From positions 4,188,501-4,252,500 of the forward strand of contig NZ_CP136422.1 of assembly GCF_034355335.1 (NCBI RefSeq): DNA of 64,000 bases, in the 5' to 3' direction. The notes under the pieces were generated by a model. That model was not told the origin of the DNA and ran no database searches. It saw nothing but the letters and a program-made list of their open reading frames with translations. The translations under genes were made by a program, and so were the position numbers. This document shows, piece by piece, positions 30,910 to 61,352 of the stretch (positions are counted from its first letter, which is position 1; every line of letters starts with the position of its first letter). This DNA comes from Blautia coccoides. GTDB taxonomy: Bacteria > Bacillota > Clostridia > Lachnospirales > Lachnospiraceae.

Positions 30910-32250
30910 TCACTCTCTATCGGATACAGGCAGGAATACGGCTATCAGGCCCCACATACCGCATACAAGATACCTTGTGGCATCCGCAGCGTGGTCGTTG
31001 ACCTTCAGCACTTCCTCTTTGCCCTTCTTGATGCTTTCGGGGTCATATTGGTATAACCCCAATTCTCTGATCAAATGTTTCTGACCCCGGTTTATAAGGA
31101 TCCTCCGGAAAGAAAAGAATTTCTGCACACGGCTGATCCCCAATTTTACGTCATTGAAAGCCGGTATAACCTCTATGTGCGGCATGATCCGCCGCACCTC
31201 CTCGATGAGACCGGCTGCGGAAGGGTCGATAAATACCCAGCTCACCACCCGGTTACACTCCTTTTCCAGTCGGTCGCAAAAGTCTTTCAGTTCTTTTGCA
31301 TATTCCGATGGGGATTTCTGCCCCTCATCTCTGCCGCAATGGTACCACTCATCCAAACCACACAATGCCTGTCGGCTGTAATCCACACCGAATGCCTCGA
31401 ATACCGTCGGATTTTTCTGACCGTAGTCAACACCCACTCCGATCTCCCCGATAGTCTTTTTATCCCCATCAGGCAGACCGTCATAATAATGCAGCTCTGA
31501 CCTGACCATATAATAGACCAGGTCATCCACGCCGGTGCTCTCCCCAAGCCATACCCAGCGATACATCTTAGGATCTGCCTGCTCCATCACTTCTGCCGAT
31601 TCTATCAGATCCGGCCCCAGCCAGTCCTCGGGTACATCCTTGTAATTTGTGTGGATGTGGATGCAGTCTGGTCGCTCCTCCATCTTACGGCACCATTCGT
31701 TGATAGGGGCATTCGGGTTTTTGGGCGGATTATAAAGATAGATCATCTGGAACCCGCCCTGGTTACCCCTGACAAAGGTGGCTTCTATGTTCGCCAGCTC
31801 CTCTTCTCCTTCGCCGTCGTCGAAGAACTCTGTCAGCTCGTCCAGTACGACCAGCTTGATAGGCTTATCCTCGTCAATGATACCCTTTGTATCGTCCACG
31901 CCATCGGATCCGGAGAAATAAATGGTGTTTCCATTCTTTTTGTATGTTATCTCCATCGGAGATTTTCCGATTTTGAACCGTTTTTTGCTGACTCCCAGAC
32001 GGTTGATACCACGTATCATCTCTTTATATACCGTCTTACGTAGCTTATTATGATGCTTACGCAGGACAACACAGGATGCATTTTTCTCAGCCATAATCCG
32101 GAAATCCGTTGCAATGCTCACATAACTGGACTTTGCGCCGGCACGACCTGATGTAAGGATAATGTGCCGATGTTTCCGGTCATTAAACAGGGGGAGATAC
32201 TTTGGAATCACTATATCAGATATCTTAATCTGCTTCTTTTGGTGCATCAT
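30910..32250 (-). CDS. terL: Terminase large subunit
   Basis: 446 residues from MMHQKKQIKISD; AGGAGTGGAGATATAC precedes this start, and the first nine upstream codons are left out. ATPase motifs TSGRAGAKSSY (Walker A) and KLVVLDELTEFFDDG (Walker B); nuclease residues in GVGVDYGQKNPTVFEAFG and FIDPSAAGL. PBSX/Terminase_3 type. Cuts and pumps DNA into the head. Overlaps the small subunit gene. Confidence 0.92.
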   Translation of the reverse strand: MMHQKKQIKISDIVIPKYLPLFNDRKHRHIILTSGRAGAKSSYVSIATDFRIMAEKNASCVVLRKHHNKLRKTVYKEMIRGINRLGVSKKRFKIGKSPMEITYKKNGNTIYFSGSDGVDDTKGIIDEDKPIKLVVLDELTEFFDDGEGEEELANIEATFVRGNQGGFQMIYLYNPPKNPNAPINEWCRKMEERPDCIHIHTNYKDVPEDWLGPDLIESAEVMEQADPKMYRWVWLGESTGVDDLVYYMVRSELHYYDGLPDGDKKTIGEIGVGVDYGQKNPTVFEAFGVDYSRQALCGLDEWYHCGRDEGQKSPSEYAKELKDFCDRLEKECNRVVSWVFIDPSAAGLIEEVRRIMPHIEVIPAFNDVKLGISRVQKFFSFRRILINRGQKHLIRELGLYQYDPESIKKGKEEVLKVNDHAADATRYLVCGMWGLIAVFLPVSDRE

Positions 32251-33004
32251 TGTATATCTCCACTCCTTCCTCTCCATCGTCGTCCTGCCCTTCTCGGTTT
32301 AATTTATCCACCTGGGCTTTTATAAGCTCCAGATGTGCGTCATCATACCCAAACTTATGCAATGCCTCTATGGCACGCTGGCGCCTTGCCTGCACCCTGG
32401 TAAGAGCCTCCTCAACTGCCTGTATCTGCCCAAGGATACCCGTAAATTCTCGCAAGTCTGTGATCTTGCCTTTTTCAAATCCTGCAGTGTATTTTGTCAC
32501 TGTCATGCCCGGCGGAACTTTTGTTGAGATGGCGCCTGGCTCGTCATCTTCTTCCTCTGGTGCGCATTCTTCCAATTCGCGCAGGCTATCTATGCGTTTC
32601 AGCATCCGGCGCTCCCGGACTGTTAAAAGCTGTATCTCCTGTAGCAGCAACTGCTCTTTATCCGGTTGCACCAGTTCCAGTAACCGTTTCTCTTCCTGAT
32701 CCAAGGTATCAAAAAAGAGAGTCTCAAACTCTCCTGTTTTCACTGCATTCTTATTTCCCGGCGGACCTGTTCCACCGTGACCTACGGCATTTCTGTTGCC
32801 AGGCTGCCCGCCCTTCCTCCTTTGCGAACGTTCGCTTTTATTTAACGAGCGCTCGCTTCCCCACTTATATGTGCTCTTCCAACGCCGAACAGTCCCTTCC
32901 GGCAAATTTAGTTGACTTGCAATCTCAACTAATTTCTTTCCGTTCAGGTACATCTCCTTTGCCTTCACAGCTCGCTCATCCAATTTCCGCGGCACCCTCA
33001 CCAC
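32225..33004 (-). CDS. terS: Terminase small subunit
   Basis: 259 residues. N-terminal HTH (VEIASQLNLPEGTVRRWKSTYKW) followed by the GGQPGNRNAVGHGGTGPPGNKNAVKTGEF stretch, which is characteristic of this phage TerS family, and a helical C terminus. It recognises the packaging site and loads the large subunit. First late structural gene. Confidence 0.88.
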   Translation of the reverse strand: MVRVPRKLDERAVKAKEMYLNGKKLVEIASQLNLPEGTVRRWKSTYKWGSERSLNKSERSQRRKGGQPGNRNAVGHGGTGPPGNKNAVKTGEFETLFFDTLDQEEKRLLELVQPDKEQLLLQEIQLLTVRERRMLKRIDSLRELEECAPEEEDDEPGAISTKVPPGMTVTKYTAGFEKGKITDLREFTGILGQIQAVEEALTRVQARRQRAIEALHKFGYDDAHLELIKAQVDKLNREGQDDDGEEGVEIYNDAPKEAD

Positions 33005-33032
33005 CTCTCAATCGTTTCGTTTTGATGTATAC

Positions 33033-33059
33033 AAAAAGAGCCAACCCGGAGGTGGACTC
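33033..33059 (-). terminator. Terminator of the ParA-headed cargo operon
   Basis: Minus strand nine-base stem (33059-33051 with 33046-33038, one mismatch and one G-U), loop TCCG, followed by five T residues, starting six bases after the last gene. Confidence 0.65.
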
Positions 33060-33064
33060 TCTAA

Positions 33065-33754
33065 TTACTTCTCGTACTTCAACATATTTAATATTCTATT
33101 TTTTCTTTTCTTAGAAGACATTTTAGCTATACTCATTCTTTCAAAAGCATTCAATTTATTAAAATCTATATTAAATATTTTATTCAAAATGTTGTATGAT
33201 ATAAATAAAAAATTAGACAAATCATCAGATAGTCTACAAATAAAATCATTTCTATTCTTTAGAATATCTCCAAGAAAATTCAATTCTTTATCATATACAA
33301 CCGCCTTATCATGTATATCGTTAGAATATTTTGCATAATAAGAATATATTTTTTCTATTTCTTTCTTTACATTTATATCTATATTTGTGTTACTATTAAT
33401 ATCTTCTTTAATATGCCTATAACTTGTTTTATTGATTTTTGAAACATCATTATTATTATAAAGTGAGTATACATATTTCAAAAATTGTTCTATAAAATAT
33501 CTCATGCATGCGTATATTCCAATGCCATCATTTATTGGAAGATATATCAATAGCTTATTCACACAATCACGAAAACGAATATAATACATCAGCCGGTCCA
33601 CGTTTACACCTAATATACTTAAATCCATATACTTTATATATATATCAGACATAATATTACTTTCACAAATCAAATTAAATAATACTTCATTTTGAAAAGA
33701 GGCCATATCTGCCTCTGGAAAATATTTTTTAAGGAATTTTATGTATTCATTCAT
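33065..33754 (-). CDS. Unknown helical protein of cargo operon, 229 aa
   Basis: Third gene of the low-GC operon. All-helical, Asn/Ile/Lys-rich and unlike neighbouring phage genes in composition. Segments YACMRYFIEQFLKYVYS and YYAKYSNDIHDKAV (His 148) recall the S-N-x-I-H pattern of HEPN-type effector domains, but the usual Arg of RX4-6H is not seen, so this is only a hint. I start it at MNEYIKF, which overlaps the previous stop by 8 bp, mirroring the junction before. It could be the effector of a defence-like system. Confidence 0.7.
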   Translation of the reverse strand: MNEYIKFLKKYFPEADMASFQNEVLFNLICESNIMSDIYIKYMDLSILGVNVDRLMYYIRFRDCVNKLLIYLPINDGIGIYACMRYFIEQFLKYVYSLYNNNDVSKINKTSYRHIKEDINSNTNIDINVKKEIEKIYSYYAKYSNDIHDKAVVYDKELNFLGDILKNRNDFICRLSDDLSNFLFISYNILNKIFNIDFNKLNAFERMSIAKMSSKKRKNRILNMLKYEK

Positions 33755-34136
33755 TTTCATCAACTCTTCCATAAAGATTTAGCACTTTTTTCATATAATT
33801 CTCTTTCGATTTCTTTGTTGTATTATCCGACTGTTCATGTTCTTCTGATTTGATTCTGTTTTTTATTTTATCTATGAACTTCCGTACATCTGTTATATCT
33901 GCTTTTTGAAAGATTCTTACAGCTCTTGCCAACATGGCTGTTCTACTTTTAAGCAAGTACAATTTACACTCTATTCCTAATTCTTCCATAAACTCTTTTA
34001 ATTCTGCATTAATTTTAAATTCTTCTTTTGATAAAATAAAACTAACTAAAACAGAATAACTTTCCATACGTACTAATTCTTCATCTTTTAGTCCTTCAAT
34101 ATATTTGATTTTTTTCAACCAAATGCTTCTATTCAT
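33747..34136 (-). CDS. Unknown small helical protein of cargo operon, 129 aa
   Basis: Second gene. ATG at 34136 overlaps the ParA-like stop by 8 bp (ATGAATAG). Helical, Lys/Glu-rich, with SFILSKEEFKINAELKEFMEELGIECKLYLLKSRTAMLARAVRIF in the middle and a charged low-complexity tail (KSEEHEQSDNTTKKSKENY). No family recognised. Tight overlap on both sides means co-expression in fixed ratio with the other two proteins, so it may be an adaptor. Confidence 0.7.
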   Translation of the reverse strand: MNRSIWLKKIKYIEGLKDEELVRMESYSVLVSFILSKEEFKINAELKEFMEELGIECKLYLLKSRTAMLARAVRIFQKADITDVRKFIDKIKNRIKSEEHEQSDNTTKKSKENYMKKVLNLYGRVDENE

Positions 34137-34986
34137 TATTATATTCCCCCACTTTATTGACAAATTCTTGACAAATAGATTTCATGTTATCCCTCAATGC
34201 CTCATCTTTTCTATCGAGAATAAACGTAGATAACTTTGACGTTGGAATTCTATTAGCTTTCAAATATGAATTCTCAAAAAAAGGCATTTTCCTATCTACA
34301 AACGCTTCTTTAATTTGGTCCATATTATTCTTTATTCCACCTTTAGGAATTTTAGGTATTCTCGTGAAAATTATTCCTAAATTATCTAGTGGGTGAGTTC
34401 TAAAATTTGCTCGATAGTTTCCTTTCAAATGATTTACAACTTGTTCAAGCAAATTTACTCCTAACAATGAATAAGCATCAGGAGTTACCGGGATTAAGTA
34501 CAAATCACTTGCGAGTAATGCAGCAATTGTATAAAAAGAATATGTTGGAGGACAATCTATTAGAATATAATCATAGTCTTTTTTCAAATTATTATCTTCT
34601 ATAAAATTTAATAATCTTTGTTCGGATGCTCCTGTTGCGGTTTCTCGCTCCATGAAGATAGTACGAAGCTCTCCAGGTACTATGTGCAATTTATTAGTTA
34701 ATTTCAAAATTATTTCTTCTAAATCAGAGTGCTCCAGTTTGGCAACACTAGTTGAAAATACCTTCTGAATAGAAGGTAGACATAAATCCCCCTTAATTAT
34801 CGTATTCTTCCCTAATACATTATATCTCTCAAAAAAAGACTGTGTACAGTTCGATTGCGGATCTACGTCAATAACTAACACTTTATTTTGAAATTCTTCT
34901 GCTAAATATAATGCTATTTCTTTGCACAAAGAAGTTTTACAAACTCCGCCTTTCATATTTAAAAAAGCTACTACATTTCGCTTCAT
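34129..34986 (-). CDS. ParA/Soj-like P-loop ATPase of cargo operon
   Basis: 285 residues. Deviant Walker A (FLNMKGGVCKTSLCK, Lys 12 and Lys 17), Walker A' (VLVIDVDPQSN) and Walker B (YILIDCPPTYSF) define a ParA-family ATPase. A partition role is not supported: no ParB or parS-like repeat is visible, and the phage integrates. Base composition is far more AT-rich than flanking phage genes, and the operon has its own promoter and terminator, so it is inserted cargo. It may act in lysogen maintenance or defence. Confidence 0.85.
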   Translation of the reverse strand: MKRNVVAFLNMKGGVCKTSLCKEIALYLAEEFQNKVLVIDVDPQSNCTQSFFERYNVLGKNTIIKGDLCLPSIQKVFSTSVAKLEHSDLEEIILKLTNKLHIVPGELRTIFMERETATGASEQRLLNFIEDNNLKKDYDYILIDCPPTYSFYTIAALLASDLYLIPVTPDAYSLLGVNLLEQVVNHLKGNYRANFRTHPLDNLGIIFTRIPKIPKGGIKNNMDQIKEAFVDRKMPFFENSYLKANRIPTSKLSTFILDRKDEALRDNMKSICQEFVNKVGEYNNE

Positions 34987-35012
34987 TTTATCACCCCGTA
35001 TATTTTTTTATA

Positions 35013-35041
35013 ATTATACTCTATTTTTTAGTGATAATCAA
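35013..35041 (-). promoter_or_regulatory. Promoter of the ParA-headed cargo operon
   Basis: Minus strand TTGATT (35036-35041), 17-bp spacer, TATAAT (35013-35018), 27 bp before the ParA-like start. A strong vegetative promoter, so the operon should be on in the lysogen. Confidence 0.75.
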
Positions 35042-35043
35042 CA

Positions 35044-35073
35044 AAAACACCCCGTATTTCTACAGGGTGTTTT
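35044..35073 (-). terminator. Terminator of the large RNA
   Basis: AAAACACCC (35044-35052) pairs with GGGTGTTTT (35065-35073); on the minus strand it ends in a T run. It insulates the cargo operon promoter from leftward transcription of the RNA gene. Confidence 0.75.
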
Positions 35074-35111
35074 AAAAAATGTATTGGGGGAGTATCGCCT
35101 TCCGGCGAAGC

Positions 35112-35178
35112 GGAACATCCGGAATCGGACCGGAACCCAGGGAGCGACCCTGTCCATCTGCCATTGATGGTATGCTCC
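35112..35178 (-). ncRNA. tRNA-like cloverleaf inside the large RNA
   Basis: Minus strand: acceptor GGAGCAT pairs with ATGTTCC (one G-U); D arm CATC-AATGGCA-GATG; anticodon-like arm ACAGG-GTCGCTC-CCTGG (one mismatch); T-like arm TCCGG-TCCGATT-CCGGA. The variable loop is only two bases and the T loop is not TTCGA, so it is not a normal tRNA gene; more likely a tRNA-like domain or remnant. Confidence 0.4.
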
Positions 35179-35751
35179 ACACATTGCACCGTAAAACGCT
35201 ATGCGATACGGTGCTGTTATCCCAGTCCTGGGACATGCGGTTTAAAGTGCATTCCCGCAAACTTGCAATTCCGCTTTTGGTATCAGAACCCCCTCGCAAC
35301 TCCACCCAGGGACGTCTCCCATGTTCTTTACCGGTTGTCACGGCTTATATTTATCACTGATATTACGTGCCCTATACATCACGCCATCATATCAGCGGAG
35401 AGGTTGTAGTTAATCGGTTCCCCCCAGCGGCGGGATCACCTCGCTCATAAAATTATACAAGATATAGCAGTCACGCAACCCACCCCGTACTGCTCTGGCA
35501 ACCATAAGTTCCTTTCATTGCCCCTACCCAAATGCCCTTTAGGCTATGTCTTCTCTCGGCAGCCTCGGAATGCTTGACGTCAATCTACTCCATTACGGAA
35601 CCATGCTGCCTATACGCCTTACTGCGCAGTGCCTGACATACCTATGCGGTACCGGCAAATCAGCCACTGGGCTATGACACCCAGCAGCCGAACAACAAGA
35701 GGAGGATAGTCAACATCCAAAGGAGCCGTTTGCTCTCGCCCACTGGCTCTA

Positions 35752-35780
35752 TTGTAAGAATAACACATATTTTTGCTAAT
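35752..35780 (-). promoter_or_regulatory. Promoter of the large RNA
   Basis: Minus strand TTAGCA (35775-35780), 17-bp spacer, TACAAT (35752-35757), just after the stop of the sigma-like gene. Transcription would start near 35745. Confidence 0.6.
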
Positions 35781-35784
35781 TGTG

Positions 35785-36201
35785 CTAATCTTTTAGATAC
35801 TGGTTTATAATCTGTGGAATCCTCCCTCTGCTATACCCTAGTTCATCGGCTATTTCGTGCTGCTTTCTTCCTTCCAAATATGCCATTTCAAAAATTTGTC
35901 GTGCGTCACTATCCGGGATTCTGGCAATAAACTGCTCAATCTCCAGCACCGCCGCCCTGATCTGCTCCTGTCTCTCCTTCCGGATTCGTAGCCTCCGGGA
36001 AATCTCATCGGCCTCTTTCGGTTCATCCATCTGGACTGATGTCCTTACCTCAGTATAGGGAAAGTCATGGCTGGAGCCTACTACCTTGCCCATGACAGTA
36101 GGAACCTCTACAGCACGGTCATACAGCTTGTCTATGGCCTTGTCATTCAGGATCTGTTCTTTCAGTAGTGCTCTGTATTGTTTCAGGGTTTTCTTGTCCA
36201 C
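35785..36201 (-). CDS. ArpU/sigma-70 region 4-like phage regulator
   Basis: 138 residues from a GTG at 36201 after GGGAGGTGATACCG; the Met seven codons earlier is inside the ribosome site. The C-terminal HTH (FEMAYLEGRKQHEIADELGYSRGRIPQIINQY) is sigma-region-4-like. Proteins of this type at the end of the early operon control late genes. It is the last protein gene before the large RNA and the late block. Confidence 0.75.
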   Translation of the reverse strand: MDKKTLKQYRALLKEQILNDKAIDKLYDRAVEVPTVMGKVVGSSHDFPYTEVRTSVQMDEPKEADEISRRLRIRKERQEQIRAAVLEIEQFIARIPDSDARQIFEMAYLEGRKQHEIADELGYSRGRIPQIINQYLKD

Positions 36202-59382: not shown

Positions 59383-59763
59383 TGAACCACCTCACTACAA
59401 TATATTTACAAAGTATGCAAAAATGCTTGTACATTATGAAAGAATTTGTCTATAAATAAGAAGTAATCAGATGGCTTTGGAAAGCTCCACTGGAATTTCA
59501 CCATTCCCATTCTGATGGGTGAACCGTGTCATACGGGTGTATCATTATTCTGATATACAGGTCATGGCAGCAACTTTTCCAACAGTCGCTTACGGATCAC
59601 TGGCATGGTCGCTCGCTTCTTTATCCCTCCTTTCGTGGGTCATGGCGTTCCAGTCCGTCGGCTCACCGTATATCAAACGTATCTGATTACTTTATTCATT
59701 TTTCAAAGAACACTTGTAAAACGGAGCTGGAATGAGGTGATAGAACACTCCGTATATATTCGC
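59383..59763. other. Intergenic stretch of the element
   Basis: No gene of useful length and no clear stem or repeat except a 14-codon minus-strand reading from 59606. I see nothing I can assign. Confidence 0.3.
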
Positions 59764-60424: not shown

Positions 60425-60995
60425 AATCTCACCTCCTTTCAAGTTGAAGTTGCTAAAGCGAAAAGGCTTTTTACCTCTTTCCGCACTAACACTCAACACG
60501 GAGGGGCGATTTGTAACCCGAATCAGAAAAAAATCAAAAAATTTTTTAAAGTAGCAAAAAAGCACAAGGGCATATAAGAAATGCTGTTCTTGTGCTTTTA
60601 AAATTGTTCCTGTTATGTAACGTGAAAAACCACATTCAAGGGTATATTGTGCCGCTGTGAAAGCTAGGATTTTTTTGACAATAACGGATATATTGAAGAT
60701 TGTCGATTATACAGGTCTTTCAATGCGGCTACCTCCCAAAGCCGCTAACCCAAAACCATTATGTTGTTTTTCTATTGATGGGAAAAGAAAAAGGCGGCTT
60801 TTCAACCGCCATCTGGAAAAAGGTATTTTGTGACACGCAAAAACGGTACTGTTGATAGCGGTTTTTTTTATTTGCCGCTATGCAGCACTTTTTAATTGAT
60901 TTACGCATAATAGGAACTAGTAAACCTTACTATACGTTTTTCTATACCTGTTAGAAAATCAACAGGAACTGTAGAATATAGTGAGGTGATTACAT
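60425..60995. other. Control region of the element with stem-loops
   Basis: 571 bp without a gene. It holds the hairpin at 60558-60599, GGCGG/CCGCC around 60792-60810, and ATAGCGG/CCGCTAT around a T-rich loop near 60857-60885. Such stem-rich regions precede Tn916-type regulatory genes and may hold attenuators. Confidence 0.5.
60558..60599. terminator. Strong hairpin with flanking A/T runs
   Basis: AAAAGCACAAG (60558-60568) pairs with CTTGTGCTTTT (60589-60599). It could stop transcription from either side. Confidence 0.6.
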
Positions 60996-61352
60996 ATGCG
61001 TAAAAAAGAAGATAAGTACGATTTCAGAGCTTTTGGTCTTGCCATCAAAGAAGCTCGTATGAAACAGGGTTTAACCCGTGAACAAGTGGGAACAATGATT
61101 GAGATTGACCCACGTTATCTAACAAATATTGAAAATAAAGGACAGCACCCAAGTTTACAGGTATTCTATGACCTTGTATCATTGCTCAATATTTCTGTTG
61201 ATGAATTTTTCCTGCCTGCGTCTGATCTGGATAAAAGCACCAGAAGACGACAGTTGGAAAAGCAACTTGACAACCTTTCCGATAAGGATTTAGTTATCAT
61301 GGAAAGCGTCGCTAACGGAATCATCAAGTCTAAGGAAGTGGCGGAAGAATAA
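60996..61352 (+). CDS. XRE-type regulator of the element, 118 aa
   Basis: [62 protein letters not shown] is a full XRE HTH with a helical C terminus. Divergent from the sigma-like gene, in the position of the Tn916 Orf9-like repressor of transfer. GTGAGGTGATTACAT ahead of the ATG. Confidence 0.85.

Follow-up and report, generated by a model that had tools for sequence, protein, structure and literature searches.

The closest described relatives of the locus analysed here place a ParA/Soj-type ATPase beside a HEPN-type gene. In the available text of Anantharaman et al. 2013 (PMC3710099), the ParA/Soj - MAE_18760 HEPN dyad is postulated to be a toxin-antitoxin system, and certain HEPN families are described as retaining the conserved H without the R. 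A second relevant system is Tha, a tail-activated HEPN effector of S. aureus prophages that, according to the accessible part of its description, acts in an Abi-like manner against infecting phages (PMC11087260). The 64,000-nucleotide stretch of the Blautia coccoides genome that was analysed (hereafter the window) contains a three-gene operon that combines an ATPase of this type with a small helical protein and a HEPN-like candidate effector, and these genes constitute a conserved three-gene cassette in prophages of Gram-positive and Gram-negative bacteria. The interpretation that we favour, at a probability of about 0.55, is that the trio is an anti-phage cassette, carried by prophages and acting by abortive infection, that comprises an ATPase switch, an adaptor and a HEPN-like RNase; the defence activity and the roles of sensor, adaptor and effector are predictions from sequence.

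All three genes are on the minus strand and overlap by 8 bp at both junctions: gene 1 (34986-34129) encodes a ParA/Soj-type SIMIBI ATPase of 285 aa, gene 2 (34136-33747) a helical protein of 129 aa, and gene 3 (33754-33065) the helical HEPN-like candidate effector of 229 aa. The overlap between genes 2 and 3 assumes that gene 3 starts at 33754, in-frame ATG codons being present also at 33760 and 33772. With that start, the arrangement agrees with a preliminary description of the locus, as do the intrinsic terminator after gene 3 (33062-33035, minus strand; -14.1 kcal/mol, z -3.4), which was missed by the first terminator scan and was equalled by one of 200 shuffles, and the base composition of the operon, far more AT-rich than its surroundings (GC 0.276 versus 0.482 in the flanks). 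Another intrinsic terminator, directly upstream of the promoter (35073-35044, minus strand; -18.4 kcal/mol, z -5.0; none of 200 shuffles as good), likely insulates the operon from upstream phage transcription. The promoter had been called strong: the site in question, TTGATT-17-TATAAT (35041-35013, minus strand), does match the consensus at 10 of 12 positions, but is graded here as consensus-like only, because the 19 promoter-like sites in the 4 kb scanned exceed the 13.5 (sd 3.1) of shuffled sequences only mildly.

The operon is an insert in a prophage-like region of the 6.1-Mb genome, just upstream of terminase genes. The earlier placement between replication and packaging genes is supported on the packaging side by TerL (30961-32172; TIGR01547, E=1e-38) and can be refined, in that the immediate neighbours, both named by eye, are a small-terminase-like gene immediately downstream of the operon (33004-32225) and a late-transcription-regulator-like gene on its other side (36222-35785). 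No phage integrase (PF00589) is encoded inside the window, all 42 matches in the genome being located elsewhere, and the intactness of the prophage therefore cannot be claimed. Upstream of the operon, the minus strand of 35100-35780 is a tract of about 0.7 kb that contains neither a convincing gene nor an Rfam match above the gathering score, of which 35248-35208 is a 95% match to Blautia phage Montmirail, where the sequence is beside a tRNA gene, and 35165-35108 an 88% match to a faecal phage contig. Two cis-regulatory RNAs, SQ2397 (60772-61008) and pemK (59487-59548), exceed their Rfam gathering scores elsewhere in the window.

The gene 1 product matches AAA_31 (E=5e-35) and phrog_164 (E=8e-46), and shares its sequence family with the ParABS partition ATPases Soj, PF-32 and Orf delta'. 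It possesses the lysine of the deviant Walker A motif, KGGxGK[ST], that holds for the family, but its own Walker A is KGGVCKTS (34953-34930), a Cys codon (34941-34939) replacing that of the last Gly. Among 64 dereplicated ParAs, 60 have Gly at this position, three have Cys (the window, L098 and L103), and one is a fragment without the motif. A sequencing slip is an unlikely cause of the substitution, since L098 and L103 carry the same Cys at just 64% and 51% identity; the ATPase activity of the window ParA is nevertheless uncertain, because Cys stands for Gly in the Walker A motif.

Given this strong ParA homology, the operon might be a partition system, in which the ParA and gene 2, as its centromere-binding partner, segregate phage or plasmid DNA and gene 3 is an accessory. 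Partition of plasmids is what many ParAs do, and the window ParA has matches in at least 5000 plasmid records; small partners occur in type Ib partition systems. However, the window contains no ParB_N (PF02195) gene, the four matches in the genome all being outside it, and a repeat scan of 32700-35800, by which a single site of novel type could be missed, detected no parS-like array around the operon; both results agree with the preliminary description, which had noted the absence of ParB and parS. Moreover, the carriers of the trio that were opened are prophages, some with an integrase next to the trio and some chromosomal, and its position varies. Neither a parS array with ParB function nor a restriction of the trio to partition plasmids, either of which had been named in advance as grounds for rejecting a cargo or defence role, was found as far as tested. 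A tblastn search for plasmids carrying gene 2 or gene 3 found none, but counts little because the same queries also missed three phages known to carry the trio. Partition is an improbable function for this operon, and is retained at all because gene 2 could be an unusual centromere binder.

The extent to which the three genes remain together was evaluated by scanning viral contigs with a five-member ParA alignment, ParA alone being the locus query, and keeping the best 80 of 147 relatives. Gene 2 adjoins ParA in 79 of these best 80 loci (gene 2 of L084 being only 82 aa), and a third ORF longer than 120 aa is present in 77 of them, the exceptions (L077, L084 and L102) being truncated or broken. 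What had been proposed as a cargo operon is thus a real three-gene unit kept across many prophages. Of the two profiles constructed for the other genes, from seven members for gene 2 and from five for gene 3, the latter matches 59 of the 77 third ORFs; when the remaining 18 were taken together with L015, 16 of the 19 matched a second profile, made from 50 members that included none of them, and L091, L093 and L096 are assigned to gene 3 solely from position and motif. One of the best 80 viral loci, L095, belongs to the same phage type as the window. Four named phages were opened after a ParA tblastn search of phage records: Lactococcus phage PLg-TB25, Lactobacillus phage LF1 and Streptococcus phage Javan1 carry the trio, adjoining an integrase in LF1 and Javan1 and with gene 2 unannotated in the latter, and Flavonifractor phage Cormatin has the ParA without genes 2 and 3.

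As a control, 80 public-genome loci with related ParAs were considered among the matches listed, of which three carry genes 2 and 3. These three are the loci of Lachnoanaerobaculum saburreum, Vreelandella boliviensis (a weak case, gene 3 matching at E=0.001) and Erwinia sp. S63. When the Erwinia copy was the query, 68 of the 5426 complete E. coli genomes matched, and in 51 of them the match covers at least 80% of it; 67 of these places are chromosomal and one is on a plasmid. In the three E. coli loci that were opened, the trio occupies one end of a prophage, with tail genes, a DinI remnant and the junction to the chromosome nearby. Since these matches amount to about 1% of the E. coli genomes, the cassette is testable in a standard laboratory system. 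The search for the trio outside phages that the preliminary description had called for gave the Erwinia locus, which has plasmid-like neighbours, the Vreelandella locus (neighbours judged by eye in both) and the single plasmid among the 68 E. coli places. Within the Bacillota, gene 3 is sparse: the gene-3 family profile finds it in six of 299 genomes at E <= 0.001, a figure that includes the window genome and a partial match that is doubtful.

Pairwise distances between the gene products correlate over 60 loci, with r 0.69 for genes 2 and 3, 0.69 for gene 2 and ParA, and 0.87 for gene 3 and ParA (the maximum of 1000 permutations was 0.20), so the three genes diverge together, although shared descent of the carrier phages could partly explain the correlation. 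The gene junctions are within 60 bp in 57 of 59 and 58 of 59 loci, and the GC content of the trio is below that of its flanks in all 56 loci with enough flanking sequence (median difference 0.09), even where the flanks exceed 50% GC. Of 144 flanking proteins selected, 124 were scanned, and the matches include 19 to a PHROG integrase, 18 to Pfam Phage_integrase and three to Recombinase; others match repressors, endolysins and terminases. The variety of these flanking genes indicates that the cassette occupies varied accessory positions.

In the window and in L197 the trio adjoins terminase genes, an arrangement that would suit a role in the lytic cycle of the phage itself, such as the positioning of replication or packaging. 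Such a role is very improbable: in other phages the trio has integrase, repressor or endolysin genes as neighbours; the operon has its own promoter-like site and terminators; the L197 trio is opposite in orientation to the terminase; and gene 3 is rare, a search with the single window protein having found it, among 295 genomes of the order, in that of the window alone. The terminase-side interval of L197 (6560-10524; G300) contains, besides the oppositely oriented trio, two further unknown genes, and is a possible cargo hotspot.

The proteins encoded by gene 3 have a median pairwise identity of 17%, and R85, E89 and H148 are invariant in all 62 dereplicated members. An aromatic residue stands at position 140 (Y in 57 of 62), and every member has S or C at position 144; in the window protein, residues 144-148 are the S-N-D-I-H motif that had been noted beforehand. 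An AF2 model, all-helical and confident (pLDDT 88, pTM 0.88), has R85 and E89 on helix 77-99 and H148 as the last residue of helix 127-148. The conservation of these three residues appears catalytic-like: E89 (62 of 62), with K or R at position 93 (59 of 62), forms an Ex3[KR] motif, and H148 (62 of 62) corresponds to the helix-terminal conserved His of HEPN type and is a candidate catalytic residue. The canonical Rx4-6H motif of HEPN proteins is absent from gene 3, R being found at H-5 to H-7 in just 11 of 62 members. Among 50 Foldseek matches listed, the two highest probabilities belong to HEPN domains, 2hsb at 0.96 (E 0.43) and sacsin 3o10 at 0.87 (E 1.4); these E-values, with no match at E <= 0.001, make the fold assignment suggestive only, and the top rows of a VIA structure search are unrelated helical membrane proteins or helical bundles. 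The earlier designation of gene 3 as a HEPN-like effector is therefore sustained in part: the residue pattern of HEPN/DUF5677 type and the leading Foldseek probabilities favour it, while the missing Rx4-6H, a DUF5677 profile comparison that is not significant and the poor structural E-values count against it.

Gene 2 of the window matches phrog_6264 (4.9e-11), a family of unknown function. Its most conserved feature is a Y60-x3-S64-R65-T motif, with Y60 in 65, S64 in 63 and R65 in 64 of 66 members. The AF2 model is helical and confident (pLDDT 87, pTM 0.71), and structure searches yielded no clear structural relative of it. Gene 2 may encode a partner or adaptor of the ATPase.

An abortive-infection cassette with these components could operate as follows. 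In the lysogen, the trio's own promoter would drive its expression, and the ParA-type ATPase, with gene 2 docked on it, would keep gene 3 inactive. A superinfecting phage, through its DNA, its replication or a phage protein, might then shift the nucleotide state or the localisation of the ATPase-partner complex, which would free gene 3; H148, with R85 and E89, may form a metal-independent RNase centre, and the cutting of RNA by gene 3 would stop the infected cell from making phage. The same parts could alternatively be assembled into an addiction module, gene 3 being an RNase toxin and ParA, together with gene 2, its antitoxin, with no purpose beyond stabilising the prophage or other element. 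This is what was postulated for the ParA/Soj - MAE_18760 dyad in the available text of PMC3710099, and the tight gene junctions and mobile distribution of the trio are in keeping with it. However, a conserved extra partner in a three-gene unit would be unusual for simple addiction, and next to a restriction-modification gene there is a gene-3 relative whose overlapping partner is another, larger P-loop ATPase. Addiction as the sole purpose is unlikely on balance; the two readings are compatible and not exclusive, and differ mainly in purpose.

That gene-3 relative is in L215 (5870-8237; G410:C1), where it has both motifs intact, lacks a ParA, and overlaps by 8 bp a gene for a 555-aa ATPase whose P-loop was recognised by eye and for which no informative PDB match was found; the pair is downstream of HsdR (E=3e-31), and is a possible sister defence pair. 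Parts of the trio family are beside restriction-modification genes in two more loci, L196 and L216, and these three cases, for which there is no background count, are leads rather than statistics. L196 (1-15000; G039:C79) carries five ParA-family genes in tandem and a single gene 2, next to a type I system: HsdR matches at E=4e-14, HsdS was recognised by eye and, in comparison with solved structures, an adenine-methyltransferase subunit is matched at E=5.5e-31 and type I M subunits from 4e-26; the 15 kb read contain no gene 3. In L216 the gene-3 relative is more distant, has D for E89 and no ParA, and lies close to a cytosine methyltransferase of HaeIII-like type (E=4e-42). By eye, the Vreelandella trio adjoins condensin-like genes and the Erwinia trio antirestriction- and methylase-like genes, of which PADLOC backs the methylase-like one only.

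A broader generalisation of the anti-phage reading, which we offer tentatively as somewhat short of an even chance, is that the trio represents a widespread and undescribed kind of mobile cassette for immunity, in which surveillance would fall to a DNA-positioning ATPase of ParA/MinD type with a dedicated small partner, the two switching a HEPN-like RNase of non-canonical type with the centre R-x3-E ... Y-x3-[SC]-x3-H, and in which the effector would also have recombined with a different P-loop ATPase and been placed beside restriction genes. If the anti-phage interpretation is true, an uncatalogued prophage cassette is common to Bacillota and Gammaproteobacteria; ParA-family ATPases, known for moving DNA, would gain a role as immune switches; and the 2013 prediction, as it appears in the accessible text of PMC3710099, that ParA ATPases control HEPN RNases would be put to the test.

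The trio is not represented in the catalogues that were searched. In PADLOC-DB 2.0.0, whose scope excludes systems newer than 2023, no model matches more than one of 56 gene-3 members, and the gene 3 product of the window has no convincing match; for gene 2, the window protein, the only gene 2 product scanned, has an unconvincing best E of 0.007, and the ParAs give generic PDC-M28B matches (32 of 34). No NCBIfam family matches more than one gene-3 or gene-2 member, no Pfam model was found to cover the gene-3 family, and no published description of the trio was found in the open literature, newer defence catalogues being outside that search. The nearest Pfam family is DUF5677 (PF18928), which two of 56 gene-3 members match (best 9e-8), whereas the other 54, the window's included, have no match at E <= 0.01. 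The signature R[STV]x2E followed by [YFW]x3[SCNTA]x3H, a pattern chosen after the sequences had been inspected, occurs in all nine DUF5677 proteins that were fetched (in shuffles 0.12 on average and 2 at most) and in 51 of 62 gene-3 members (in shuffles 0.37 on average and 3 at most). An hhalign comparison of gene 3 with an alignment of the nine DUF5677 proteins was not significant, being no better than the reversed control, and no trio genes were found on the nine DUF5677 loci, which are short, at about 3.4 kb.

Among characterised or postulated systems, ParABS has an ATPase of the same family, but the window ParA is paired instead with genes 2 and 3. Tha resembles the trio as a HEPN effector carried by prophages, the corresponding activity of the trio against infecting phages being predicted; it differs in its ArgX4His motif (R265-H270), its separate inhibitor Ith and, as far as the available text of PMC11087260 extends, the lack of a described ATPase partner. 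The ParA/Soj - MAE_18760 dyad has in common with the trio a ParA/Soj-type ATPase beside a HEPN-type gene, postulated to be an ATPase-controlled RNase; judged by the part of its published description that is available (PMC3710099), it is set apart by having two genes and a conserved Rx4-6H, whereas the window trio has three genes, lacks Rx4-6H and resides in prophages. Compared with these systems, the trio looks like an uncatalogued ATPase-controlled HEPN-like conflict module.
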